Below, one piece after another: positions 27,116-47,851 of a DNA stretch of 64,000 nucleotides. The translations under genes and the position numbers were made by a program. The stretch spans positions 923,001 through 987,000 of the forward strand of contig NZ_CP121445.1 in NCBI RefSeq assembly GCF_029689925.1. Direction: 5' to 3'. Under the pieces are notes generated by a model. The model was not told the DNA's origin. It saw only the letters and a list, made by a program, of their open reading frames with translations, and searched no databases. This DNA comes from Anaerocolumna sp. AGMB13025 (GTDB lineage: Bacteria > Bacillota > Clostridia > Lachnospirales > Lachnospiraceae). Numbering within the stretch: position 1 is the first letter of the stretch; each line of letters opens with the position of its first letter.

Positions 27116-27603
27116 ACTGACTAACTCCTTATCTTAAGCGGCTGGTTTATCCATAATAACCTAGTATAGCCAATTATTATGTGATTCATTATATTACAAA
27201 AATCTTATTTATTCAATTCTTGGTTTGCTGGTATTCGGAAATTAATTTGGCTATATTTTAATGTGTAACGATTATTTTCTATCGGGTGTATAGGTAATGT
27301 GCTCAATTGCTAGAATGATTGCCATATAATGGAATAAGTGATAGTATTAATTTATTGTAATAAAGTATAAATAACATTGTGTAGCTATTGGTGTAGAATT
27401 AGTTGTTTTTGGAATTGTTTTAACCTATTAATTTATAGTGAAAATATATGTTATTATTTTAGAAAAGGAAAAATAAATTAATTCCATATTACATAGTAAT
27501 TACTTAGATTATCTGCACAAGACTGTATAAATTAGCACATTCAGAAATCATCCTAAAAAACTCATTGAAATTTAAGATAAAGTATAGTAAACTAAAATAA
27601 GAA
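27116..27603. other. AT-rich divergent intergenic region
   Basis: No gene seen. It must hold promoters for the minus-strand membrane protein and for the purH riboswitch transcript. TTGAAA and TAAACT 17 bp apart near 27565-27593 are a possible but weak purH promoter. Confidence 0.4.
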
Positions 27604-27735
27604 TTTGTATGACTGGCGGAAGTGGGAGTTAACCCACGGGAAGTACAAATAATATTGAGCCGACCGCCTGGGCAGCCTTTGGTAACCTTATATATTTATT
27701 ATAAGTGTTCACACAGGTTACCCAGGCGGTTTTCT
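27604..27735 (+). promoter_or_regulatory. ZTP (pfl) riboswitch with terminator, upstream of purH
   Basis: GACTGGCG (27611-27618), the GTGGG-AGTTAA-CCCAC hairpin, GGGAAGTAC and GCCGACCGCCTGGGC (27659-27673) are the conserved parts of the ZTP/pfl aptamer. GGTTACCCAGGCGG (27716-27729) followed by TTTTCT can pair with CCGCCTGGG of the aptamer and with GGTAACC after it. This makes a terminator that excludes the folded aptamer: ZTP or ZMP, signs of low folate, would favour read-through. purH consumes ZMP, so the control is logical. Confidence 0.9.
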
Positions 27736-34358: not shown

Positions 34359-34387
34359 TTGAAAAATCCATTATGGTAATGTATAAT
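34359..34387 (+). promoter_or_regulatory. Consensus sigma-A promoter for the 6S-like RNA
   Basis: TTGAAA (34359-34364) and TATAAT (34382-34387) are exactly 17 bp apart. The expected transcript start is near 34394. It is the strongest promoter I see in the window. Confidence 0.85.
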
Positions 34388-34393
34388 AAAGTC

Positions 34394-34614
34394 ACAAGAA
34401 GTTCCTGGGATGTACGACACTCCTGTTATTTTGAACCTACATGATATAATATGGGATTCCTACATCCGTAAGATTATGTCAGGCCACCGTTTGCAGTGGA
34501 AGACAGAGGCTTATGTGCGGAAACCCACCTAGCTTTGCTAGGAGTCAAAATACAGGAAACGGCGTTTCGGGTACATGAACAAAAGATGAAGGGCAGCTTT
34601 AGCTGCCTTTTTTT
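34394..34614 (+). ncRNA. ssrS: Probable 6S RNA
   Basis: A gene-free transcript between a consensus promoter and a strong terminator. TCCTGTTATTTTG (34421-34433) pairs with CAAAATACAGGA (34546-34557), closing a long rod with an open central region containing GAACC and GGGATTCCT. This is the layout of Firmicute 6S RNA, which binds the housekeeping RNA polymerase by mimicking an open promoter. GTGCGGAAACCCACC and GGAAACGGCGTTTCGGGTAC also recall 6S sequences of Clostridia. Assigned by structure and memory only; a covariance search would settle it. Confidence 0.62.
34592..34614 (+). terminator. Terminator of the 6S-like RNA
   Basis: GGCAGC-TTTA-GCTGCC followed by seven T. Confidence 0.9.
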
Positions 34615-34650
34615 ACTGAATAGACGAGTAAAGTTCGTCAGCAGATGGGA

Positions 34651-34866
34651 GTTAGGTTGAAAAAACAAGAGAAGTTTTTTGGGCATCCTGATTTGTATGT
34701 GTGCTAAAGCACACAGATGGGAGTTAGGTTGAAAAAACAAGAACAGTTTTTTCAATATCCTGATTTGCATGTGTGCAAAAGCACACAGATGGGAGTTAGG
34801 TTGAAAAAACAGGAACAGTTTTTTCAACATCCTGATTTGCATGTGTGCTAAAGCACACAGATGGGA
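34651..34866 (+). repeat. Three tandem 72-bp family-1 leader units before nadE
   Basis: Units start at 34651, 34723 and 34795, each from GTTAGGTTGA to GATGGGAG, with few differences. Upstream, GACGA / TCGTC followed by AGCAGATGGGAG (34622-34650) looks like the 3' end of a fourth, diverged unit. Each unit has two stems and its own GATGGGAG; only the last one is next to a start codon (34874). Single units precede GH30 and phoP. Confidence 0.9.
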
Positions 34867-35377
34867 GTTTTATATGAAACATGGATTTGTTAAAGTTGCT
34901 GCAGCTACCCCAAGGATACAGGTAGCAAACTGTATTTATAATGCGGATAGAATCATCGAACTAATTGAACAGGCGGAAAAAGATCAGGTAAAAGTACTTG
35001 CCCTGCCGGAATTATGCCTTACCGGATATACCTGCGGAGAACTTTTTTTACAGGATACCCTGTTAAATAGTGCTGCTGCTCAGCTTGCACGAATCGAAGC
35101 GTACACTGCCGGTAAAGAGGTTTTGGTTACTCTTGGGGTGCCAATCACTACAGAAGGCAAACTTTATAATACGGCAGCAGTGATACAAAACGGTCAGCTC
35201 CTTGGTTTTGTTCCAAAGAAAAACCTGCCGAACTATTCTGAATTTTATGAGGCAAGATATTTTAACGCCGGTCATGAAAAGGTGGAATACATTAATTTTA
35301 ATGGGAAGAAAGTTCCGCTTGGAACGAATCTTTTGTTTCGATGCTTAAATATGCTGTCTTTAACAATCGGTATTGAA

Positions 35378-35383
35378 ATCTGC
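35378..35383. repeat. Left core of the element (attL), ATCTGC
   Basis: Six bases shared with 46430-46435 and containing the catalytic-cysteine codon of nadE. They are the expected strand-exchange overlap for tyrosine recombinases. Confidence 0.8.
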
Positions 35384-35409
35384 ATATGGTACATTTTAAA
35401 TATGTTCAA
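35384..35409. repeat. Left terminal inverted repeat of the element
   Basis: Begins ATATGGTACATTTTAAATAT. It matches the reverse complement of 46404-46429 at 21 of 26 positions, including blocks TATG, ACATTT, AAATATGT and CAA. In the circular form both arms would flank the core directly. Confidence 0.85.
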
Positions 35410-35492
35410 TAATTATATATATAATATGAATAAATATAGCTATAGATGATGAACACATTTTTATATCAGTCATGAAGAAAAGGAGTATAAAT

Positions 35493-37481
35493 ATGAATGA
35501 TTTTATAAATAATGGAATCATTGAAGTAGCTACATTAACACCTAAGTCAGTACAAATAGGAAACCCAGCCTACAATGTAGATAGGATGTTAGAACTTATC
35601 AATGATGTTAATAAAAAAAATAGTAATGGTGAGAGACAGACAAGAATCGTAGTATTTCCAGAACTTTGTATTACTGGTTATACTTGTGGAGACTTATTTA
35701 ATCACTCCACATTAATTAATAGTGCTATTAATGAATTGTTTAGATTTGTTGAAAAATCCAATAATGAATTTAATCCAATTATGTTTGTGGGAATGCCGTT
35801 AAGGAAAGATAATCAATTGTTTAACTGTGCAATACCCATTCATAAGGGTAAAATACTTGGTATAATACCTAAGACATATATTCCAAACTACAGTGTGTTT
35901 TACGAATCTAGAAATTTTAAACCTTCATTCGATAGAATTAACGATGAAATGACCATTAGAGGTGTTACGTATCCTTTTACAACAAATTTACTTATTGAAG
36001 ATGAGGTATCAGGAGCGGTTATCGGCACTGAGGTGTGTGAAGATTTATGGGGACCGATACCTGTGTCTTCATATCATTGTTTGCATGGTGCTAATATCAT
36101 AGTGAATCTTTCAGCAAGTAATGAGACTATTGGTAAATCAGATTACCGAAGGGATTTAGTTAGGATGCACTCAGCAAGGTGCATGTGTGGCTATATCTAT
36201 GCATCTGCAACATCTGATGAATCTACAACAGATAATGCATTTTCAGGACATTGTATTATAGCCGAAAATGGATATGTAATATCAGAATCAATATTTTTTA
36301 GCAATACAGAGATAACTTATGGTGAAATTGATATTGAAAAATGTATCAATGATAGGACAATGAATAGTTCATATATGATTATCCAAGAAAAGAAAGAATA
36401 TAAATGTATAAATACTAAAACATTTGAGCCTGTTTCTCATAAATTTAAATCAAACAAGGAACTATCTGTCTTACCATTTGTGCCTCATAATATTGACAGC
36501 CGTTCCGAAGAGATTATGAATATTCAAATCACAGGATTGGCTCAAAGGCTTAAAAAAATACATTGTAGTAATGCTGTAATAGGTATATCGGGGGGCTTGG
36601 ATTCTACACTGGCATTAATTGTAACGGTAGAGGCATTTAAGTTAAATAATTATGATATGAAAGGTATCATAGGAATTACAATGCCTGGTTTTGGTACAAC
36701 CTCCAGAACTTTAGAAAATTCTAAGAAGTTAATGGAAGCTTTGAATGTAACAATATTGGAAATTCCGATAAGAGATGCTTGTATTCAGCATTATAACGAT
36801 ATTCAACATAATATCGATATTCATGATATAACCTATGAGAATGGACAAGCAAGAGAGCGTACACAAATTCTCATGGATATGGCAAATAAATATAATGGTA
36901 TTGTTGTGGGAACAGGTGATTTGTCTGAGTTAGCTCTTGGATGGTGTACGTATAATGGAGACCAAATGAGTATGTATGGGGTAAATGCATCTATTCCAAA
37001 GACATTGGTAAGAAGTATTGTTAAATCCTATGCAAAAAAGCAAGCTGATGATATCAAGGATACACTTCTTGATATCTGTGATACACCGATTAGTCCTGAG
37101 TTATTGCCTCCAAATCCAGACGGAACAATTGCCCAAAAAACCGAGGATGCTATTGGCTCATATGCGGTGCATGATTTTGTTTTATATTATATGTTGAGAT
37201 ATGGATTTGGTCCTAAGAAAATATATGAGTTGTATGTTAATTCGTTGGAATTACAAGCTGTTAGAAAAGGTGTAAATCTTGATATAATTGATAAACAAAG
37301 TATACTAAGAGACATGAGAACTTTTTATAAAAGATTCTTTGCACAGCAATTTAAACGTTCTTGTATGCCAGACGGCATTAAGGTTGGTTCGGTTTCGTTA
37401 TCTCCAAGAGGTGATTGGAGAATGCCAAGTGATGCTTCTGCAGAAATATGGCTGAAGGAGCTTGATACGGTTGAGATATAA
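35493..37481 (+). CDS. nadE: Glutamine-dependent NAD synthetase carried by the element
   Basis: 662 residues, full length. The N-terminal nitrilase-type domain releases ammonia from glutamine and has the complete triad Glu57 (VFPELC), Lys127 (IIPKTYIPNY) and Cys182 (TEVCEDLW). The C-terminal ATP-pyrophosphatase domain turns deamido-NAD into NAD, with PP-loop SGGLDST at residues 366-372 and the later GTGDLSELALGW. ATG 35493 has AAGGAG seven bases upstream and is preferred to ATG 35472. The protein is clearly homologous to the broken host enzyme but well diverged and more AT-rich in codons. It lies 84 bp inside the left inverted repeat, in the host gene's direction, so the host promoter could drive it. 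At the target site its codons read GTG-TGT instead of ATC-TGC, so the core is absent. Confidence 0.96.
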   Translation: MNDFINNGIIEVATLTPKSVQIGNPAYNVDRMLELINDVNKKNSNGERQTRIVVFPELCITGYTCGDLFNHSTLINSAINELFRFVEKSNNEFNPIMFVGMPLRKDNQLFNCAIPIHKGKILGIIPKTYIPNYSVFYESRNFKPSFDRINDEMTIRGVTYPFTTNLLIEDEVSGAVIGTEVCEDLWGPIPVSSYHCLHGANIIVNLSASNETIGKSDYRRDLVRMHSARCMCGYIYASATSDESTTDNAFSGHCIIAENGYVISESIFFSNTEITYGEIDIEKCINDRTMNSSYMIIQEKKEYKCINTKTFEPVSHKFKSNKELSVLPFVPHNIDSRSEEIMNIQITGLAQRLKKIHCSNAVIGISGGLDSTLALIVTVEAFKLNNYDMKGIIGITMPGFGTTSRTLENSKKLMEALNVTILEIPIRDACIQHYNDIQHNIDIHDITYENGQARERTQILMDMANKYNGIVVGTGDLSELALGWCTYNGDQMSMYGVNASIPKTLVRSIVKSYAKKQADDIKDTLLDICDTPISPELLPPNPDGTIAQKTEDAIGSYAVHDFVLYYMLRYGFGPKKIYELYVNSLELQAVRKGVNLDIIDKQSILRDMRTFYKRFFAQQFKRSCMPDGIKVGSVSLSPRGDWRMPSDASAEIWLKELDTVEI

Positions 37482-37582
37482 TACAATAAAAGGATAACCT
37501 ACTAAGAAAGTCGATTATTTTTCTTACTATAAATTATATATGTGACTTCTTAGAGACGGTGGTTTTCTGTTCTACTCAAGCA

Positions 37583-37627
37583 CAATCGAGAGCCGGGGAA
37601 ACGACTCGTTTTTCCCGGCTCGTATTG
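37583..37627. repeat. GC-rich hairpin after the element nadE
   Basis: CAAT and GAGCCGGGG pair with CCCGGCTC and ATTG around an AAA/TTT-flanked loop. It stands out in AT-rich surroundings. No T-run follows the 3' arm, so a terminator role is uncertain. Confidence 0.55.
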
Positions 37628-37691
37628 ACCAATTTACTGACTTGGAGTAATATGTAAAAATAAGTATAAACAAAACATAGTGAGGATTAGT

Positions 37692-38453
37692 ATGGGATAT
37701 AAGTTAGTAACCTTTCAAGATGTAGGAAAGTATACAATTTTTAAAGAAATTACTGAGGAAGAATTGAAAGCAGCTCAAGAAAGTATAAGAGCCTTACAAA
37801 AAATCATGATTTGTAAGGACTATTATTATATAGTTGTTGATAATATAGATGATTGGCAGAAATCATTACAGAGTTGTGATTTTTTAGATAATAAAAGTTT
37901 TACAGCTTTAAATAGATATATGTACAACATTTTAGGTGCTTATTATGCTTGGGTAGAATTTTATGAAACAAACTATAAAGATATCTTTGGTGTGGTAAAG
38001 AAGAATTACTATGATAACTATTTTACATATAGAATGATTTATAATTTAAGAATATATATGACACATTGTGAAATGGGTATAACTCAATCAGAGATAAATT
38101 ATGATAAGCAGGAGGTACATATTTATGTATCTCCGAAGAATCTAATTGAAAAGGGTAAATCAAGGTTACAAAATAAAGTGGTCAAGGAATTGGAAGAAAT
38201 GATATCCGAGAATAAATTGCTTGATGTTGAGATGCTAATTAATGATTTTAAAGATATTTTTACCGATATGAACAAGGACCTTACTAAGGCGCTTAATCCT
38301 AAAGTAAAAGAGAATCTAAACTTTTTGTATGATTGTATATCTAAAGAGGGTAAGTTAGTACAATGTTCATTTATTTTCGATGAAGATAAAAATGAAGTAA
38401 TATTAGATATACCAACATATATCAACTTATTTCTAAAGAAAATGGCATCTTAA
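37692..38453 (+). CDS. Unknown helical cargo protein with an R-x4-H motif
   Basis: 253 residues from ATG 37692, which has GAGGA five bases upstream. I recognise no named family. The protein is mostly helical, with many Tyr, Lys and Glu and no signal or membrane segment. Residues 116-127 read IYNLRIYMTHCE, where R120-x4-H125 at the end of a helix matches the catalytic pattern of HEPN RNases; the preceding helices (about 70-118) would fit a HEPN four-helix bundle. HEPN proteins are frequent toxins and defence effectors, but one short motif is weak evidence. It stands in the cargo part of the element, after the nadE hairpin and before a gene remnant. Confidence 0.4.
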   Translation: MGYKLVTFQDVGKYTIFKEITEEELKAAQESIRALQKIMICKDYYYIVVDNIDDWQKSLQSCDFLDNKSFTALNRYMYNILGAYYAWVEFYETNYKDIFGVVKKNYYDNYFTYRMIYNLRIYMTHCEMGITQSEINYDKQEVHIYVSPKNLIEKGKSRLQNKVVKELEEMISENKLLDVEMLINDFKDIFTDMNKDLTKALNPKVKENLNFLYDCISKEGKLVQCSFIFDEDKNEVILDIPTYINLFLKKMAS

Positions 38454-38469
38454 GTTATAACAGTAAAAA

Positions 38470-38688
38470 TGAGCCGGAGATTATGAAATCAGGCTTGAAA
38501 ATTCTTTTATTGTAGATAAGATGGAACCAAACCTAAAAGAAGCTAATTCATTTGGAATAAAAGGTACATTAACCATAAGTAATAAGAAGGGTAAAGTTTT
38601 ATTTGTTGCACCTGCCAATGAATGCGAGATTTTATATTATAGCTCTCCATGGGCTGTTTGGCACAGGACCCAAGTGTCAAGGCGGTAG
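38470..38688 (+). pseudogene. Gene remnant without a start
   Basis: The frame is open from just after a stop at 38469 and reads plausible protein (EIRLENSFIVDKMEPN, then GKVLFVAPANECEILYY), ending at a TAG at 38688. The only ATG (38521) lies inside and lacks a ribosome site. It looks like the tail of a lost cargo gene. No family recognised. Confidence 0.35.
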
Positions 38689-38744
38689 ACCCTAGCGCAA
38701 GATAGTAATAAAGTACAAATGAAAGAAAAGGTGGTTTCTAATAT

Positions 38745-39353
38745 ATGGGTAGTATAGGAAGAAATGATAGATGCCCTTGTGGTAGTGGTTTAAAATACAA
38801 ACAGTGCTGTTTAAAGAAGAATAATCTAACTTTTAATGAAATTGAAAGTGATGATAATATGAGAATAATAGTAAAAAGTACTTATGATTTCATTAAGGAA
38901 AACAAATTTGAAGGAGGTTGCCATCTGACTTCTGCAATAATGTACATTCTTTTAACAGAGGTAGGCTTTACAGATTTAGAAGTCAAAACAGGTGTAGTAG
39001 AAAATGATGAAGGTAGATTTGACCACTCATGGGTAGAATATCAAGGCAAAAAGATAGATATGGCTATTATGAACACCTTACAGGATGGTTTCAAATATCC
39101 ACCTGTGTTTTTAGATAAATTAATAGGTAGTTCAGAGCTTATGGAATACAAATATGGTATAGATATGGAATTAGATTCAGATGCACTAAGAGTATTAAAT
39201 CAATCTTTAAGTGATTACATTTTAGATGGGGAATCTCAAAATACAGTGTTAATTTTTAAGGATATAGCAAAAAGGTCAGGCATAGAGCTTTCAGATGCTA
39301 AGGAAACATTAAGAAAGTATTCAGGTACATACCGGGTGTTAGAACGAAAATAA
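38745..39353 (+). CDS. SEC-C zinc motif protein with a transglutaminase-like Cys-His-Asp triad
   Basis: 202 residues. The N-terminus is a SEC-C motif, RNDRCPCGSGLKYKQCC (Cys10, 12, 21, 22), a small zinc module first known from SecA. Residues 55-107 then show GGCHLTSAIMYILL, DHSWVEYQ and KKIDMAI: Cys59, His94 and Asp105 are spaced as in papain/transglutaminase-like enzymes, with the Cys at a helix start and His/Asp on following strands. A peptidase or amide-transfer activity is therefore possible but inferred. The C-terminal 70 residues are helical. It is cargo of the nadE element, with AAAGAAAAGG upstream as ribosome site, and is followed by an (AAT)n run and a terminator. Confidence 0.6.
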   Translation: MGSIGRNDRCPCGSGLKYKQCCLKKNNLTFNEIESDDNMRIIVKSTYDFIKENKFEGGCHLTSAIMYILLTEVGFTDLEVKTGVVENDEGRFDHSWVEYQGKKIDMAIMNTLQDGFKYPPVFLDKLIGSSELMEYKYGIDMELDSDALRVLNQSLSDYILDGESQNTVLIFKDIAKRSGIELSDAKETLRKYSGTYRVLERK

Positions 39354-39402
39354 TAATAATAATAATAATAAACAAACATAATCTTTTATAATGCAGAGAA
39401 AC

Positions 39403-39438
39403 AGAGAGGGCACGAGATTTTTACTTCGTGCCCTCTCT
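39403..39438. terminator. Strong hairpin terminator after the SEC-C gene
   Basis: AGAGAGGGCACGA pairs perfectly with TCGTGCCCTCTCT, then TTG. The T-run is short but the stem is very stable. Confidence 0.7.
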
Positions 39439-39479
39439 TTGCCTCATTGAAAATTATTTTGTAAAATATTTAAAAAGTA

Positions 39480-39549
39480 TTGCATTAATACTACATATAT
39501 GTTATATTAAATTCAAAGATTAAGTTAATACTGCATATATGTAGTATTA
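39480..39549 (+). promoter_or_regulatory. Promoter filled by a palindromic operator, with a second operator copy
   Basis: TTGCAT (39480-39485) and TATATT (39503-39508) are 17 bp apart. The whole spacer and the -10 are covered by a 24-bp palindrome (39486-39509, starting TAATACTACATA). A second, almost perfect copy (39526-39549, starting TAATACTGCATA, 11 of 12 positions symmetric) lies between the -10 and the ribosome site, 40 bp centre to centre. Binding would block the promoter. TACA/TGTA boxes recall BlaI/MecI/CopY operators, but the inner spacing is two bases longer. Confidence 0.7.
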
Positions 39550-39572
39550 AATTTATGAAAGGGGTAGTTGCT

Positions 39573-40001
39573 ATGGGATTTAAAGAAGATTTTATGAAGA
39601 AGACAAAGATGCTTGATGTAAATGGTGGAAAAGCAGGAGTTGAAGAGGTTATGAATTTTTTGGTTAAGCCAGAAAGTGTATTTAAGATGATAATTGCATC
39701 AGAAATGGATTTACCAGTATTAACATTAATCGGAGCAGAGTTGGAAAGAAAGTTTGATGCACATTCCAATTTCCCGGTTATTTACCTTGGTAATGACAAA
39801 AATCCAACAGCTAGACAGAATGTAGGAAGAATGGTAAAAGTTGTAATGGCTCAATATGGTTATACTCCTGTTGATGGCGGATTATCAGAACAAGCAAGAA
39901 TACCTGCGATATCAGGTACGGACTATTTTTCAACCAGTGGCATATATAAAAAAACAGATGAAGCAAAACTCGAAATCGAAATAATATCTAGAGAGATATA
40001 G
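39573..40001 (+). CDS. Unknown small cargo protein under operator control
   Basis: 142 residues from ATG 39573, with AAAGGGG eight bases upstream; an ATG at 39555 would start before the ribosome site. No family recognised. Residues about 15-60 are helical (KAGVEEVMNFLVKPESVFK, then LTLIGAELERKF); the middle has TARQNVGRMVKVVMAQYGY, which could be a helix-turn-helix-like or nucleic-acid-facing helix, and the end is strand-rich. It has no membrane segment or signal. The two palindromes in its promoter suggest tight control, perhaps by its own product; that is inference. It is the last plus-strand gene of the element and ends before a terminator. Confidence 0.5.
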   Translation: MGFKEDFMKKTKMLDVNGGKAGVEEVMNFLVKPESVFKMIIASEMDLPVLTLIGAELERKFDAHSNFPVIYLGNDKNPTARQNVGRMVKVVMAQYGYTPVDGGLSEQARIPAISGTDYFSTSGIYKKTDEAKLEIEIISREI

Positions 40002-40055
40002 AGTAGTAAATAGAAATCAAAGTACAAATTCAAAAGTTATTTTGTATAAAGTATG

Positions 40056-40083
40056 AAGGTGCAGGTAAAATCTGCACCTTTTA
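40056..40083 (+). terminator. Terminator after the small cargo gene
   Basis: AAGGTGCAG / CTGCACCTT with a short loop, then TTT. It separates the cargo from the convergent recombinase operon. The remaining 266 bp to 40349 hold nothing I recognise. Confidence 0.8.
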
Positions 40084-40349
40084 TCTATTCCAAGGGTACT
40101 CAAAACTTCCATTCACACAATATGTTGATTATTCAACACTTTTCTTTCTATCTGGTAATACCACTCAGAAATCTCCTTTAAAGTTTGTATATATAGTATT
40201 TGTCTTTTTAAGTGAGTTATAAGCTTCAAATTGTGCTCGTTCTTTTATAATTGATTATTTTGTTCTGTATTATTAAAATATCCTTTAAAAAGGGTTTTAA
40301 AACAGGATAAAACAGGGATGTAAAGCTTTAAACAGATTTTATTTACATA

Positions 40350-40859
40350 TTACTCACCTGATTTTAGTGCATTTTTTCTGAAAGTCCTAATTTCTTTATC
40401 TTTTTTTTCGATTTCCATCTTTAGATTGTCAACATCTATCTTCAATGTCTTGAGTTCATTTGCTAACTGTTCATTTTCAATGATTATTAACTCTATTTTT
40501 ACATCTTTTATTTCATGCATATCAACTTCTTTCCGCAGTTCATCAATGATATCGTTAAGTTCACTGATTTTAACATACGGATTATTTTTGTTTAATTCTA
40601 TTTCGCGCTTATCGATATATTGTATTAGGATTTCGTTATTATAAAGAGTAGTTCTGGAGCAGTTTATTTGCTTAGATACATACGATGCGTTAAATTTACT
40701 TTTCTTGAAATGTTCAACTGCTCTGGTTTGGTTCTCTTTAATTTCAGTTGCAAGCTGTTCGATTTTTATAAGATAATCATAGATGAAATCTGGTATGTCA
40801 TCTTTTGAAATGCCCATTCTATTTATTATAAGTTCAATGCTTTCATCATATGTTGCCAT
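40350..40859 (-). CDS. TnpC-like accessory protein (HTH plus coiled coil)
   Basis: 169 residues. Residues about 45-85 contain a helix-turn-helix-like stretch (ASYVSKQINCSRTTLYNNE), followed by a coiled coil to the end rich in Glu and Lys (ENEQLANELKTLKIDVDNLK). This is the layout of TnpC of Tn554 and the DUF6262-type proteins that accompany recombinase operons. In Tn554, TnpC is needed for efficient and correctly oriented insertion (known of the family). The gene overlaps the upstream recombinase gene by 34 bp, so it is the last cistron of a coupled operon. Confidence 0.75.
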   Translation of the reverse strand: MATYDESIELIINRMGISKDDIPDFIYDYLIKIEQLATEIKENQTRAVEHFKKSKFNASYVSKQINCSRTTLYNNEILIQYIDKREIELNKNNPYVKISELNDIIDELRKEVDMHEIKDVKIELIIIENEQLANELKTLKIDVDNLKMEIEKKDKEIRTFRKNALKSGE

Positions 40860-42667
40860 TTATTTGCCTCCAATAGGATTTCGTCATAATTTTCAATAAT
40901 ATTAACTAAATCGGGGTAGTTAATCAAAATGCTATCTGTTCCATGTTTGTTTATCTGTACCTTTAGCTCCTTAAGTTCAGGAAGTAATTTATCTCTAACA
41001 ATTCTACCTAACATCAAACACTCTTTTTCAACTTGACGGAAATATTCATTTCTGTAGTTGATATTGATTGTTTCTACGAGTTCTTTGCACTGTCGGTAAG
41101 ATAACTCACACATATAGAAAAAATGAAAGATGTTTGGACATACATTATACGCACAGAATAGTTCATTTGTTTGATAATCTTTGCTGCATTCTCTGAAGGG
41201 GGAACTTTTAATACATACACCACCTAATTTAGCTCTTATTGGTACGGCTTCAATGAGCTTTTGTACTATTGCTTCAACATCTTTTTCAACATTAAAGTTA
41301 TTGTTATTGATAAACCTTTGTATGTCATTATGCATCTGACCAGCATTGTTACCAAGAATTTTTAAGTCACCACGTACGATACCTTCTATTGTCTGTCTGG
41401 AAAAATTAATATCTTCTTGAATATTATTCGGGTTTCTAACATAATAGCCTTCCATTTCCTCAGAGAGGTGTCCCATGAATTTACGTATATACTGTAAAGG
41501 GACTCCTTTTTCGTATAGATTGGTACAGACTGTGACACGATACTGAATGGTAATCGGATAAGTTATTGTCTTGATAGTTCTATGTTCTCGAAATTTAACG
41601 GTGCTCAGATATTGCGATGGTTCAATACGGTTAATCGTTTTCAATTCCTTGTCATATGATATAAATAGCTCAATATTTCGCTTGTTAAAGCTCGTTTCTG
41701 GAACTGGATGTACTTTGGTATTTGGAAATAAAATCAAGTAATCCGTGCCTTTTTGGTTTCTAAATTCATTGGTTATTTCAATGAGCTTTTTGAAAGCAAA
41801 CTCGGCTAATTCAGTTACAAAAATATCCATAGATGTATACTTGTTATTACCACGGATACTTTTCTTTAAAATATATTTAAGGTATGGTATTCTGCGACCT
41901 TCATGAAGTGACTTATAATTAAGGGAGCTTACTGTAAATGTGAGAAGCTCACTTATCCTCAAACCGGTTTGGCTTAGTAAAAGAAGAGCAGCTGCAGTTA
42001 TTCTGTTATTTATGGTTTCGGTTACGCTGTTTATAGTTTTGATAAATAATTGTATCATTTTATCAAGATATTCTTTCGGTATATGAGGTGTTTTATTTGC
42101 TTCAATATGGTTTAGTAAAGCATCATTATATGTAATTGCAAGCTCTTGAGATAGTTCGTCATTTAAGATATTTTTAAAATTATAGGAATATACCTTAACA
42201 AAATCTAAGACAGCCTCTTTGATGGCATTCTCATATCGGAGGGATAGCGCAGAATCCTTTTTGAAAGCAGCAATGTCGTTCGCTGTGATTTCATTCAGAT
42301 AATATATTCCTTTGTTATAACAGTATCTTAAGAACTTTTTAAGACGGAATAAGTATGCATGAATTGATTGTATCTTTTTTCTGTTATTTAGAAGAGATAA
42401 TAGTACATATGATTTAATATCTTCTTGGAAACAAACGGGTATATCAGTAAAATTTAATATTTTTGTTCCAGAGGGTATGGCATCAGTTTTATTACCTCTG
42501 AAGTCCCAAATGTTATCTGAAAACTTCATAAAAGTATCGTTATGCGGGAGAATGTCAATTTCTATAATCTTTTTAATAATATCATTAACTCCATAGGTGT
42601 TCAGATTGATTTCTTCACCTGTAAGTTTCTCGAGTTCTACAATATTTATAGCGAAATTATCATACAT
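40826..42667 (-). CDS. Tyrosine recombinase 3 of the trio
   Basis: 613 residues. The catalytic domain spans about 230-440: first Arg in SQTGLRISELL, second Arg in IQYRVTVCT (the usual first His of HxxR is Ile here), later His in MGHLSEEMEGYY and the nucleophilic Tyr in the same segment. A Cys-rich C-terminal region (CIKSSPFRECSKD, CAYNVC, MCELSYRQC) may bind zinc. Large N- and C-terminal extensions are usual for the second and third recombinases of such operons. It overlaps the gene before it by 8 bp and the TnpC-like gene by 34 bp. With its two partners it should cut and rejoin the core hexamer. Confidence 0.85.
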   Translation of the reverse strand: MYDNFAINIVELEKLTGEEINLNTYGVNDIIKKIIEIDILPHNDTFMKFSDNIWDFRGNKTDAIPSGTKILNFTDIPVCFQEDIKSYVLLSLLNNRKKIQSIHAYLFRLKKFLRYCYNKGIYYLNEITANDIAAFKKDSALSLRYENAIKEAVLDFVKVYSYNFKNILNDELSQELAITYNDALLNHIEANKTPHIPKEYLDKMIQLFIKTINSVTETINNRITAAALLLLSQTGLRISELLTFTVSSLNYKSLHEGRRIPYLKYILKKSIRGNNKYTSMDIFVTELAEFAFKKLIEITNEFRNQKGTDYLILFPNTKVHPVPETSFNKRNIELFISYDKELKTINRIEPSQYLSTVKFREHRTIKTITYPITIQYRVTVCTNLYEKGVPLQYIRKFMGHLSEEMEGYYVRNPNNIQEDINFSRQTIEGIVRGDLKILGNNAGQMHNDIQRFINNNNFNVEKDVEAIVQKLIEAVPIRAKLGGVCIKSSPFRECSKDYQTNELFCAYNVCPNIFHFFYMCELSYRQCKELVETININYRNEYFRQVEKECLMLGRIVRDKLLPELKELKVQINKHGTDSILINYPDLVNIIENYDEILLEANKWQHMMKALNL

Positions 42668-44828
42668 TTAAGTTCTCCTTATTTATATGTTGAGCATCAA
42701 TTATGTAAATTTTCTTTAAGTAAGCCAGTAACAATTGCTTTTTTAACTGTAAGTCTTCTATATCATGTCTTGTGCTCAGTGTTTCGAGTTTAAAATCAAT
42801 TTCTTTTATTCTTTCTTCGAAAAAGCTTTTTCTATCTACGGTTGTGGCAAATTCCTTACAAATGAAACAACTAAAGTAACTATCATCAGTACAGTGGCTG
42901 CGTTTACAAAAGCCACAGCCTTTTTCTACGACACTTTCATTACATAATTTAGATGAGTTAATTAAGACCTCGCCATTAACATTAATATCTCCTATCTGCG
43001 TCTGATAAAGTAATTCCAGCATTTCAGTGATGTCCTCATCTAAATAATGTCTTTTGGTTATTTCTGTATTTTTATGTCCGGTTAATATTGATTGTGTAAG
43101 CTGGTGTAAACCTTTGCTGATAGAGTATTCAACGCTTTTGGTCATATGAGTATCTCTTAAATTTTTAGCTGTGTACGGTTTTATGCGCAGTTCAATGCAA
43201 ATGTTTTTTAAGTAGATGTTAAAATCATCTTTCCTCATAGGTGAAATAACTAAACTCCGGTTAATATTTCGTTTTAAGAAAATCCGGTTATTAATACTTT
43301 CATCTTGGCATTTGTTACGTATCATTGTTGTGCTTGAAATTACTGAGTCCAGATGCTTTTTAATATACTTGGTTATGCCAGTTTTTATTTCGAAGGTTCC
43401 AGATGATTTGGTCTGAAATTCTATGACATACTGATTTTTTTTAATCGTGTCTCTGATACTGTTTATTTCAAGTGACAATATATGGGATAGTCTCATCTCT
43501 GATTCAAGTAACAGATAGAAGATGACATAATAAAGATTAAATTTAATATCTTCATAAGTTTTTTCTTTCATCTTATTTGCTATTTTAACTAAATCTTCAT
43601 CAGAGACTTTCTCGGCATTATTAATTCGAGCATAGGAGTGTGTTAACTGTATCAATGTATTCTTTTCAATATTTATCTTTTTAGTATCATTGCAATAATC
43701 CAAAAACACTTTAACACCGTTGAAAGTACGTCCAATATTGGAATCTACTTGTACAGTACTTAGGATATTATTTTTGTATATAAGTACCTCATCAATGCTA
43801 ACTTCATAATATTGATGCTTTTTTCTGCTGCATATAAAGTTTAAAAAGTCTACAACATAACCGTAATTCTTAATTTTAGTCAATAATGAAGAACCTGTAT
43901 TTACCCAAATCCACTCTTTGACGATTGCCTGATATTCTTTAGCAACAATCCGGTTAAAATCTATGCTATTTCCGTGTAATTTAGCGGTTTTTTCATTGTT
44001 GGTCTTATATTCTTCGTTTTGAATTAATATCCACTTATCCGTAAGAGGTACATTTTCAAGTGGATTGTGATAGTAGGCCCGATAGCCGTCAAGATACTCA
44101 GAGCTGAAGGTATGTCTTTTCATTGCTTCATAAATGATTCCGCTATTTATTGGAAATAAGTTTTTGTCCTTAGAGATTTCCCATATATAATAATAAAAGT
44201 AAAACAATGCATTAACGGCGTTTTTATCTTTGAAATACTGATACTGTGTTTTAAATGTATCATAATTAAAATCATCCAGACTTATTATGGAATGATTTTG
44301 CATGCTTTCTTCAAAATTCAGTAGAAAGATTTTATATGCTTCATGCTTATATAAGTCTGTTCCGGTATCGATGAAGTCTACTAACAGCTTAAAAATATCA
44401 AGGCTCTTTGCATTTATTATAATATTCCTTGAGCTTTTAGTAAGCCATATAGAATGCGGATATTCCATCTGTTCACAGGTGCATCTTTGAATGGTTGTTT
44501 GTGATAGATAGGTTAATTGTTCGTGGGCAAGTATATATTCATCTCGTATTTTATTTGGTAAATAATCAATAGTTGTGAAATGTAGTAATAAAGAAAAGAC
44601 ATGATGTAAGGCTCTAACATTCCGTAAAAAAAACTTTAATTTGTTCCATTCAAAATCTTGACTGATATGATTGGAAAAACATTTGAAACTTCTACTTATT
44701 TCCAATGACTGGGTTGAAGAAACGTTGTTGTATTTGTTATCACAAAATTCCATTACAATTTTCTTTAATTCTTTGTCACGAAATTCAACTTGGCGAATTA
44801 GTCTAACTACTTCATTACTTGTATTCAT
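42660..44828 (-). CDS. Tyrosine recombinase 2 of the trio (TnpB-like)
   Basis: 722 residues, the longest of the three. Catalytic motifs lie in the C-terminal third: Arg in ESEMRLSHIL, Arg in AKNLRDTHMT (Lys in place of the first His), His in TGHKNTEITKRHY with the Tyr nucleophile. A zinc-finger-like tail follows (CGFCKRSHC, CFICKEF), as in TnpB proteins of the Tn554 group. It overlaps the first recombinase gene by four bases and the third by eight, so expression is coupled. The motifs are complete enough for an active enzyme. Confidence 0.87.
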   Translation of the reverse strand: MNTSNEVVRLIRQVEFRDKELKKIVMEFCDNKYNNVSSTQSLEISRSFKCFSNHISQDFEWNKLKFFLRNVRALHHVFSLLLHFTTIDYLPNKIRDEYILAHEQLTYLSQTTIQRCTCEQMEYPHSIWLTKSSRNIIINAKSLDIFKLLVDFIDTGTDLYKHEAYKIFLLNFEESMQNHSIISLDDFNYDTFKTQYQYFKDKNAVNALFYFYYYIWEISKDKNLFPINSGIIYEAMKRHTFSSEYLDGYRAYYHNPLENVPLTDKWILIQNEEYKTNNEKTAKLHGNSIDFNRIVAKEYQAIVKEWIWVNTGSSLLTKIKNYGYVVDFLNFICSRKKHQYYEVSIDEVLIYKNNILSTVQVDSNIGRTFNGVKVFLDYCNDTKKINIEKNTLIQLTHSYARINNAEKVSDEDLVKIANKMKEKTYEDIKFNLYYVIFYLLLESEMRLSHILSLEINSIRDTIKKNQYVIEFQTKSSGTFEIKTGITKYIKKHLDSVISSTTMIRNKCQDESINNRIFLKRNINRSLVISPMRKDDFNIYLKNICIELRIKPYTAKNLRDTHMTKSVEYSISKGLHQLTQSILTGHKNTEITKRHYLDEDITEMLELLYQTQIGDINVNGEVLINSSKLCNESVVEKGCGFCKRSHCTDDSYFSCFICKEFATTVDRKSFFEERIKEIDFKLETLSTRHDIEDLQLKKQLLLAYLKKIYIIDAQHINKENLNV

Positions 44829-46219
44829 GGTTTACCTTCTTTGGTATTATAATTATATGTTTTTAGTTCTGGTAAAAAGCGGTATAATTCATCAGTAAAA
44901 TCTTCTTTAATTTTAACTTTATCAGAAAGTGTTAATTTATAATATCGTTCAAGCGTTCTAATGGAGCGATGTCTCATTAATTCTTTTAGTTTTAATATTT
45001 TCGTATTCATGTGTTGAACATGAAAAACGGCAAATCCATGGCGAAATCTATGGCTAAGGTTATGAATCTTTTTTTCCTTATCAACAGCTATGTCTGCTTT
45101 TATAAATATCTCTCTTAGGGTGCTTGACCACATACGCTGCGAAAGTTTTTTACCTTGTGAATTTAAAAAAACATAATAATTCATATCTTCATATTTAGAT
45201 GCACTTCTAACCCTGTCAGCTTTAGCGTGATGATAGTAATTGACTTTCTTTGTTTTCCTGTATTTGAGATGGTATTTTTCTATGTAGGAGTTTATTAATT
45301 CAAAAAGTTCACGAGGAACAATTACAACTTGATAACTGTCTTGATATGATTTAAGCTGATATTCACCCACATCGTGAACTTTCATGCAGGTTTTAGCCTT
45401 TTGGTAATTTTCATCGGATACACGGTTTCTTATATAAGCATATGTAATGTAGTTTACTCCATGTTCAGTTTCTACTTCTTTAACTACTAAATCATCAGCT
45501 GTTAAGCCTAAGACTTCGCCAATTCTTAAGCCAGTTTCAAACATTAAGCGTACAATGCATTCTTCAAGTAAGGAGTATTCACTTCTGATTATATTAATAA
45601 TTCTTGACATTTCTTCAGTGTTGATATATGCAGGGACTTCATCTAATAGCTCATCATGCTTTTTAATTCTGTTTTTATAAGGAATAGTTTTATGCGTATA
45701 TTCATCACTAAGTGTATGTTCAATAGTTTTATATTTATCTAATTCTAAAAGTTTAGAGGTAGTTTTATCACAATATTTTTCGGCATATATTCTGCAGCTT
45801 GATAAATAGGAGGAAATGGTTTCTGAATTTCTTTCTGTAGTCAACTGTAAAGACAGTTGTCTTCCTTTTAGTGATTTACCTTGTAGGAAATTAATAAAGT
45901 TATTAATATCTGAACTTTTAAAATCACTGATTTCCGTGTTGATTATGTATGAGAAGATGAATAATAATTTTAGTCCATGTAAGTTTTTTTCTTTTGAATT
46001 ATAGGCTTGTTCTGATAAGTCTATATTTAAGAGTTTAAATACATCTTTAATAATACACATATTCATATCATAAAGAATAAAGTATGTTTTGTTATCGATT
46101 TTCTTGATAACCGTTTTATATCGTACTTTTTCTTCATTTATAAGTGTATTGTTATGGTCAAAGATTCTTCTTAAATAAAACGTGTTTCCATTTTTCTTTT
46201 GTTCAATTACTGCTATCAC
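44825..46219 (-). CDS. Tyrosine recombinase 1 of the trio (TnpA-like)
   Basis: 464 residues, with the full catalytic set: Arg232 (ETGLRIGEVLGL), His390 and Arg393 (LSHRFRHGFA), His417 (LMRHRSIRTLERYY) and Tyr426. A SAM-like core-binding domain (about 75-150) precedes the catalytic domain. GTG 46219 has GGAGAG eight bases upstream. First gene of the four-gene operon, starting 184 bp inside the right inverted repeat, so its promoter lies at the element's right end. It has the most canonical active site of the three and is probably a main strand-exchange enzyme; division of labour is inference. Confidence 0.88.
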   Translation of the reverse strand: MIAVIEQKKNGNTFYLRRIFDHNNTLINEEKVRYKTVIKKIDNKTYFILYDMNMCIIKDVFKLLNIDLSEQAYNSKEKNLHGLKLLFIFSYIINTEISDFKSSDINNFINFLQGKSLKGRQLSLQLTTERNSETISSYLSSCRIYAEKYCDKTTSKLLELDKYKTIEHTLSDEYTHKTIPYKNRIKKHDELLDEVPAYINTEEMSRIINIIRSEYSLLEECIVRLMFETGLRIGEVLGLTADDLVVKEVETEHGVNYITYAYIRNRVSDENYQKAKTCMKVHDVGEYQLKSYQDSYQVVIVPRELFELINSYIEKYHLKYRKTKKVNYYHHAKADRVRSASKYEDMNYYVFLNSQGKKLSQRMWSSTLREIFIKADIAVDKEKKIHNLSHRFRHGFAVFHVQHMNTKILKLKELMRHRSIRTLERYYKLTLSDKVKIKEDFTDELYRFLPELKTYNYNTKEGKP

Positions 46220-46403
46220 GATGATATCTCTCCAATCCTATGATTAACTCATAATAGCACATAGCAGTACTGTTGTACACTTTTATTTTTGGGATATGCA
46301 GTTAAATGCATTTATAACATGAGATAGAAATTTATTTCTGTTCATAATAGCTTTTATTACGAAAAGGTGTTATAATGTAGAAATAATAATGGATTTAATG
46401 GTG

Positions 46404-46429
46404 TTGTACATATTTGAAATGTGTCATAC
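46404..46429. repeat. Right terminal inverted repeat of the element
   Basis: Reverse complement begins GTATGACACATTTCAAATAT and matches the left arm (35384-35409) at 21 of 26 positions. TATAAT at 46371-46376 could be the -10 of an outward-facing promoter, but no good -35 is seen. The minus-strand operon promoter must lie in 46220-46403. Confidence 0.85.
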
Positions 46430-46435
46430 ATCTGC
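46430..46435. repeat. Right core of the element (attR), ATCTGC
   Basis: Same hexamer as at 35378-35383; the host nadE frame resumes directly after it with GAG GAC TTA TGG. Confidence 0.8.
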
Positions 46436-47851
46436 GAGGACTTATGGGTACCGCTCCCGCCAAGTGTAAACCATGCCATGGCCGGGGCAACACTGATTTT
46501 AAATCCCTCTGCCAGTGATGAAACCACTGGAAAAGATATTTACCGCAGAGATTTAGTAAAGATGCAGTCGGCGAAATTAGTGTGTGGTTATATCTATGCC
46601 GATTCCGGGGAAGGTGAATCCACAACGGATTTAGTATTTGCCGGGCATAATCTTATTACAGAGAATGGTGTCCTGCTAAAACAGTCAAAACGCTTTGAAA
46701 ATGAAATGATATATTCCGAACTGGATGTCCAGAAGTTAATGAATGAGCGTAGAAGAATGAGTACTTTTACGCCGACCTCTTTTCAGGAATATGAGATAAT
46801 AGAATACAGCTATTCCTTTGCCGGACTTCCAGATACTGAATTAACCCGGTTTATCGATAAAGCACCTTTTGTACCTGGTGTAAAAGCAGACAGGGACAGG
46901 CGGTGTGAAGAGATAATTAATATCCAGGCTTTTGGATTAAAGAAGAGACTGGAACATACCGGCAGCCAGTGTGCAGTCATAGCCATCTCCGGAGGACTTG
47001 ATTCCACCCTTGCATTACTGGTTACCTGTAAAGCCTTCGATTTGCTACATCTGGACAGAAAGGGAATACGAAGCGTTACCATGCCTTGTTTTGGTACAAC
47101 GGACCGTACGTATCAGAATGCCCTTGCTTTAGCGGGACATCTTGGTACTACCTTAATGGAAATTCCAATTCAGGATGCAGTACTGCAGCATTTTAAAGAT
47201 ATTGGCCATGATAAGGACAATCATGATGTAATCTATGAGAATTCCCAAGCCAGGGAAAGAACCCAGATTATTATGGATTTATCCAATAAATATAATGGAC
47301 TGGTTATCGGTACCGGAGATATGTCAGAGCTGGCACTGGGCTGGGCTACTTATAATGGGGATCATATGTCCATGTACGGAGTGAATTCTTCCGTGCCAAA
47401 GACCTTAGTGCGTTATTTGGTATCTTATTTTGCGGAAACCGCAGAAGTGGAATCCTTAAAACATGTGTTGTTGGATATCCTTGATACGCCGGTAAGTCCA
47501 GAGCTGCTGCCGCCGGTAGAGGGAGTTATATCCCAGAAGACAGAAGATATTGTAGGTCCTTATGAGTTACATGATTTTTATATGTTTTATATTTTACGGT
47601 ACGGTTTTACCCCTGATAAGATATACCGGCTGGCGGTTATAGCCTTTCAAGACTGTTATGATAAAGAAACTATCCTAAAATGGCTCAAGGTATTTTACCT
47701 CCGGTTCTTCTCCCAGCAGTTTAAACGGTCCTGCCTTCCGGATGGACCTAAGGTTGGTTCGGTTGCCGTATCGCCAAGGGGAGATTTGCGTATGCCAAGT
47801 GATGCCAGTGCGGCACTCTGGCTTATGGACCTTGAGAATATCAATTGCTGA
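46436..47851 (+). pseudogene. nadE: 3' part of the host NAD synthetase gene, separated by the element
   Basis: 472 codons including the stop, continuing the host enzyme from the residue after the catalytic cysteine (EDLWVPLPPSVNHAMAG). It contains the rest of the glutaminase domain and the whole synthetase domain with SGGLDST, ENSQARERTQI and GTGDMSELALGW, so the lesion is only the insertion. 34874-35383 plus this segment give one 641-residue frame. A GTG at 46421, supplied by the element end, could in theory start an N-terminally truncated protein (SYICEDLW...) with an intact ammonia-dependent synthetase domain, but I see no ribosome site for it. Confidence 0.93.

Follow-up and report, generated by a model that had tools for sequence, protein, structure and literature searches.

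The nadE gene (NAD synthetase) of Anaerocolumna sp. AGMB13025 is split by an 11,052-bp element (measured core to core) at codons 169-170, ATC TGC, encoding Ile-Cys. Coordinates are positions in the window, the whole 64,000-nt stretch of NZ_CP121445.1 that was analyzed. The 5' part of the host gene, codons 1-170 with the core included, lies on the plus strand at 34874-35383 and matches positions 7-179 of the NCBIfam profile NF002730; the resulting stub starts at 34874, runs through codon 170 (Cys) and 22 element codons, and stops at 35449. The 3' part (46430-47851, plus strand) features 471 open codons with the whole synthetase domain, and is 74-87% identical to congeners. The 6-bp core ATCTGC is identical at both ends of the element (35378-35383, corresponding to Ile169-Cys170, and 46430-46435), and is flanked by terminal inverted repeats, the left one at the AT-rich end (35384-35409), the right one at 46404-46429, which match at 21 of the 26 outermost bases; no longer direct repeat is seen at the ends. 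The initial annotation had placed the cut after codon 170 and predicted that exact removal restores a 641-residue enzyme. Junction cores and frame confirm this, in silico excision yielding a single 641-residue nadE frame without internal stops.

A complete nadE of 662 aa, the proposed replacement, resides in the element at 35493-37481. It lies on the plus strand as the host gene, starts 43 bp past the stop of the stub, and is preceded by AAGGAG. The earlier description of this gene as complete and diverged holds true, the product being full length (NF002730, 787.9 bits, profile 7-673 of 677) and 51% identical to the joined host frame. Residues 6-658 align to the Mycobacterium tuberculosis NAD synthetase 3dla, and the alignment reveals the SGGLDS motif together with the glutaminase-domain residues Glu, Lys and Cys, which we take to be catalytic. 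The host Cys at the insertion site is aligned to the CED-motif Cys of the M. tuberculosis enzyme, presumably the glutaminase nucleophile.

The carrier genome (Lachnospiraceae, single contig of 6.82 Mb, completeness 96.59) was searched for additional NAD synthetases. PF02540 matches the element nadE (102.1 bits), the host 3' fragment (97.6 bits) and, partially, five more proteins (24.1-30.6 bits, over the Pfam cut-off of 21 bits). The latter were discarded as second NAD synthetases, being assigned by NCBIfam to QueC, MnmA, GuaA and, in two cases, LarE. By PF02540 and NCBIfam, no intact NAD synthetase other than the element nadE was found in this genome. Because the gene is complete and no other copy was found, the element nadE likely takes over NAD synthesis in the carrier.

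The 3' part of the host nadE finds matches in 13 of 15 genomes of the genus, the carrier and 12 others; the two genomes lacking a match are incomplete (63% and 78%). Each of the 12 matching congeners has a single nadE, an uninterrupted open frame of 641-681 aa. The joined host frame aligns over its full length in all 12 (70-86% identity), the insertion site is well conserved among them, and degV, its next neighbour in the window, is located downstream of nadE in 8 of the 12. Since congeners have one uninterrupted nadE with a conserved site, the split pieces represent the resident gene, into which the element arrived later.

Recombination module, cargo and flanking DNA

Three tyrosine recombinases and a small protein are encoded by the minus strand at the right end of the element. 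These are a ginA-like recombinase of 464 aa (44825-46219, PF00589), a ginB-like recombinase of 722 aa (42660-44828; PF00589 at E 1.8e-5 and 25 bits, below the 27.1-bit cut-off), a ginC-like recombinase of 613 aa (40826-42667, PF00589), and a ginD-like protein of 169 aa (40350-40859). Out of 34 related loci, 33 were examined, L045, a 3.6-kb contig, being left out. The recombinase trio occurs in the same order at 30 of the 33, the remaining three (L021, L030, L040) being short or cut contigs; BLAST matches to the small protein (E<=1e-5) were found behind the third recombinase in 11 of 33 loci. Residues R232, K276, H390, R393, H417 and Y426 of the first recombinase are present in 13 of 13 aligned rows, and R446, K474, R558 and Y595 of the second in 14 of 14. 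In the third, R237, K269, R377 and H400 are kept in 14 of 14 rows, Y409 in 93%.

The element is present in one copy in the carrier genome. A single-sequence scan of genome contigs detected no relative, and a recombinase profile run in a class-level survey of 391 genomes matched the carrier genome alone. No match was found in phage records. Staphylococcal plasmids match the recombinase of the window at about 25% identity over 46% of its length.

Three cargo genes lie on the plus strand between the element nadE and the recombination module. They encode a 257-aa protein (37680-38453) and a 148-aa protein (39555-40001), both without family, the former by Pfam and NCBIfam, and a 202-aa SEC-C motif protein (38745-39353). 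Padloc analysis returned only a weak SEC-C match and one marginal match.

The initial annotation had placed the element nadE downstream of the host promoter. The lead for this promoter, at about 34.4 kb, coincides with the start of a 6S RNA gene (34399-34577, 71.8 bits), and the promoter of nadE is therefore not located; the best promoter-like match, at 34359-34387, suits the 6S RNA rather than nadE. Immediately downstream of the 6S RNA, at 34642-34869, is a tandem array made up by 3.2 copies of a 72-bp unit, ending just upstream of the nadE start, and each unit contains a TGTGTGCTAAAGCACACA-like palindrome. A ZMP/ZTP riboswitch (62.4 bits) was found in the window at 27599-27680.

The same layout at ligA, topB and recJ

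A script screened the related loci for any gene close to the outer end of the first recombinase that has a relative further inside; broken genes were named by family scans, and the full layout was then derived from whole-genome searches. Genomes other than that of the carrier are partly drafts. The three-part layout found at nadE, i.e. 5' stub, full copy and 3' fragment, was found at three more genes in nine further genomes. ligA is split in all three genomes looked up, those of Cytobacillus gottheilii, Ornithinibacillus gellani and Cohnella lubricantis, with stub 1-136, full copy 1-664 and fragment 134-662/663, the Cohnella layout being spread over two contigs. topB is split in 4 of 4, Clostridium akagii, C. 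magnum, a Terrisporobacter metagenome-assembled genome and Bacillus norwichensis, with a stub to about residue 110, a full copy, and a fragment from 108/109. The Terrisporobacter and B. norwichensis layouts reside on two contigs each, and the full copy of B. norwichensis is itself divided between contigs as 4-250 and 268-691. In C. bowmanii and C. mediterraneense (2 of 2), recJ features a stub to residue 65, a full copy of 2-544/545 and a fragment from residue 63.

Stub and full copy are on the same strand in all 10 elements, a placement which fits the use of host transcription by the new copy. In nadE and ligA elements the recombinases are oriented against the target, and the new copy comes directly after the stub; in two of the three ligA elements the new ATG overlaps the stop codon of the stub (ATGA). 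In topB and recJ elements the recombinases are oriented with the target, and the new copy is close behind the small-protein gene (L022, L028, L044). The full copy is the sole full-length one found in all six genomes with split nadE, ligA or recJ. Identity between host and new copies is 36-53% for nadE, ligA, recJ and the Terrisporobacter topB, reaching 90-94% for topB in C. akagii and C. magnum.

Most insertions look recent, since host 3' fragments are still open in 8 of 9 cases checked. The C. magnum topB fragment has an internal stop, and at least one insertion could thus no longer be reversed by excision. In the same genome (G793), a second topB 3' fragment (C9:103658-105331, L113, profile 171-703) lies 16 kb past the first, and may represent another element or an older layer. 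At L038 a full topB lies behind the recombinases, the flanks falling beyond the contig. Decayed ligA pieces (L027 16374-17170, residues 312-583, in two frames) were found in a Pelosinus propionicus element, behind its recombinases. This element adjoins a truncated selO, and the ligA pieces are possibly the fossil of a replacement gene left after a move. Additional cargo was observed in some relatives. The O. gellani ligA element (L066 3624-8399) also carries isoleucyl-tRNA synthetase (IleRS), ThyX and dihydrofolate reductase (DHFR) genes, all of housekeeping type, and a GHKL-type ATPase (HATPase_c_3) is cargo in two distant elements (L028 18245-19903, L046 16752-18446).

Target sites and origin of the carried copies

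Cut points fall within conserved motifs in all four genes (nadE GIEIC|ED, ligA TRGD|G, topB DRE|GE, recJ DYD|xDG), which we take to be active-site motifs. Cores and new copies were read by eye. The 6-bp cores are the same at both ends in the nadE and two topB elements, and differ between ends in ligA elements; in all nine readable new copies, one or more core bases are different from those of the broken gene. This difference may block recombination at the new copy.

Recoding was scored in 8 of the 10 elements as the share of same-residue codons that differ, near the site vs. gene-wide, the junction codon being dropped in some rows. Scores were 5/7 vs. 0.56 for nadE, 6/6 vs. 0.64, 2/6 vs. 0.57 and 4/6 vs. 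0.67 for ligA, 8/11 vs. 0.32 (p 0.007) and 2/9 vs. 0.27 for topB, 2/6 vs. 0.47 and 3/9 vs. 0.41 for recJ. For a general selection for recoding at the site, these results are mixed. The sequence EVCEDLWGP around the catalytic Cys is common to the element nadE and its 90% relative (P0121, P0122), and is absent from both other sets of listed relatives.

Between genera, the three element ligA proteins share 71-78% identity; with the host fragments they share 40-47%. Pairwise nonsynonymous divergence (dN) is 0.14-0.20, and synonymous divergence (dS) is 1.08, 2.42 and saturated, values indicative of purifying selection on the coding sequences. On account of this mutual similarity and of dN vs. dS, the element ligA copies look like one selected, moving lineage. 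In the O. gellani family, the element ligA type was found in a single genome out of 159, that of the element carrier itself.

The case of the element nadE is different from that of the element ligA. In the tree, the host nadE clusters with the eight congeners used, and the element nadE falls in a different clade. No relative was detected in 396 other Lachnospiraceae genomes at E<=1e-285, and relatives 74-77% identical reside in the family of C. bowmanii; for these reasons a Clostridiaceae-type gene is the likely source of the element nadE. One contig of 24,829 bp appears to carry a 76% nadE and both recombinase types, as judged by equal size only. A similar linkage on a 486,436-bp contig was dropped, 486 kb being too long to show linkage. 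Viral contigs searched with the nadE alignment gave 17 loci, 28-46% identical.

Proposed insertion and replacement

We consider it highly probable that a GInt-like element, inserted in active-site codons of nadE, carries a foreign and complete nadE which likely takes over NAD synthesis, and that the same design recurs at ligA, topB and recJ. Both the function of the new copies and the mobility of the elements are inferred from sequence. In the proposed mechanism the 6-bp core, seen within one of the most conserved stretches of nadE and at a site uninterrupted in congeners, would be the landing point. The recombinases and the small protein would integrate the element, in circular form, at this core, in the way published for GInts. 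Host-side transcription would then pass the stub and enter the new gene, which is seen to have the orientation of the host gene, 43 bp past the stub's stop and with a ribosome-binding sequence, so that the enzyme would be changed in one step; the ATGA overlap of two ligA elements would couple translation. An active-site target would provide suitable sites in many hosts, and the new copy, differing at the site, would be a poor target itself. Exact excision would restore the host gene, but the element would become indispensable if the new copy were lost or the host pieces decayed. The earlier expectation that loss of the element is costly must be modified accordingly: such a loss would be costly only if the deletion is imprecise, the new copy is lost or the host pieces have decayed, and not after exact excision, which leaves an intact host frame.

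The element resembles GInts in the ginABCD set, an operon located at one end that encodes three tyrosine recombinases and a small protein (PMC5385486), and in having cargo and a short AT-rich opposite end. GInts insert site-specifically with 6-nt staggered cuts, are bounded by imperfect direct repeats (10-17 nt), need all four genes for excision and integration, and form circles (PMC5385486). The assignment is GInt-like by gene layout; GinC, reported to lack the first catalytic Arg (PMC5385486), is matched by position only, and R237 is kept here in all rows. GInts sit at gene ends, gene beginnings or in intergenic DNA, and are not expected by their authors to inactivate the target fully (PMC5385486); the nadE element, in contrast, is internal, and carries a replacement of its target, a feature not described in the available text on GInts. 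Integrases and integrative and mobilizable elements also target host genes, often housekeeping ones, at 3' and more rarely 5' ends (PMC5704250), whereas here the cut is internal and a whole gene is supplied.

Members of the Tn554 family similarly combine several tyrosine recombinases with a small protein, TnpC, and a short core. Tn554 inserts in radC, rather than in nadE or, as the relatives do, in ligA, topB and recJ, and is not known to carry a radC replacement. The mismatched cores of the ligA elements resemble those of Tn554 and Tn552-II, in which one core comes from the donor site. Low identity between GinD and TnpC is reported by the GInt authors (PMC5385486). Tn552-II, a tnpABC element of Staphylococcus aureus which brings its core from the donor site, carries a homologue of the gene it breaks; in one sentence, without a wider survey, the authors suggest that this "target-gene-like" gene may rescue the target (PMC12486829). 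The target is a YolD-like gene and not a core enzyme, and the donor gene varies between sites (PMC12486829). The Tn552-II suggestion is the only mention of such target replacement found in the literature covered, most subscription papers being outside this coverage. The initial annotation needs correction in that the nadE element is not a one-off. Replacement of a core enzyme after an active-site cut is described for neither GInts nor Tn552-II in the literature covered. Insertion in an essential gene together with a carried rescue copy is known from home-and-rescue drives, which are engineered, Cas9-based and used in insects, and offer a works-like analogy only (PMC7968924).

The element nadE could be ordinary cargo which matches the broken gene by chance. 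GInts carry varied cargo (PMC5385486), and IleRS, ThyX and DHFR are housekeeping-type extras in other GInt-like elements, but the match between broken and carried gene recurs for four genes and 10 elements, on the same strand and with parts in register. This explanation, the least credible of those weighed, is rejected on account of the recurrence. It is also improbable that the host 3' fragment is still an ammonia-dependent NAD synthetase, the element nadE being dispensable. The fragment is open and retains the synthetase domain, and transcription is directed outward from the gin end in some GInts (PMC5385486). Yet the only start is a GTG within the element end, without a clear ribosome-binding sequence, promoter-like matches at the recombinase end are not in excess (6 vs. 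4.1 in shuffles), and ligA, recJ and topB fragments, which lack catalytic parts, could not act in this way.

Equally improbable is an old, immobile remnant with incidental recombinases, the foreign nadE having arrived by another route. One assembly cannot show an empty site or a circle, and the genome has a single copy of the element; identical cores, undecayed host fragments and conserved catalytic residues in the recombinases stand against this, and for the same three reasons a recent site-specific insertion fits.

Several results weigh against insertion and replacement as a general rule. Further full-length topB genes are found in three of the four topB genomes (G792, G793, G795). In model bacteria, neither topB nor recJ is essential. 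Since topB is mostly not the sole copy, and both genes are dispensable in models, essentiality is not the whole reason for the design. At 22 of 33 loci a second target copy is missing from the available DNA, or the case is not settled. Truncated neighbours without a second copy in the available stretch were found at L024 (phosphotransferase system trehalose IIBC), L034 (DNA polymerase IV-like), L046 (Rep/PcrA-like helicase) and L015 (rtcB); far ends are mostly beyond the stretch, and the L015 genome has a full rtcB on another contig. Insert-and-replace design is thus shown for some relatives, not all. Near-site recoding is in excess in one close pair (8/11 vs. 32%) and not in the other (2/9 vs. 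27%). In the C. bowmanii family, 3 of 206 genomes carry the 74-77% relatives of the element nadE by themselves, with neither recombinases nor another nadE, and the hypothesis of an exclusively element-borne nadE lineage was dropped as a consequence.

A wider proposal, for which we see the case as evenly balanced, is that these elements form a natural class which targets near-universal active-site DNA, swaps the enzyme for a site-altered version in one step, is locked in once the host pieces decay, and spreads foreign versions of NAD synthetase, DNA ligase, topoisomerase III and RecJ across genera; such a class would be the counterpart in nature of home-and-rescue drives. With internal sites of indispensable genes as landing sites, usable targets would extend far beyond gene ends. 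Automatic annotation would label such genes as duplicated or as pseudogenes, overlooking the swap. How elements become indispensable would turn into a directly testable question, and core enzymes, including ligA, a marker of descent, would have a concrete route for replacement across genera in one event.

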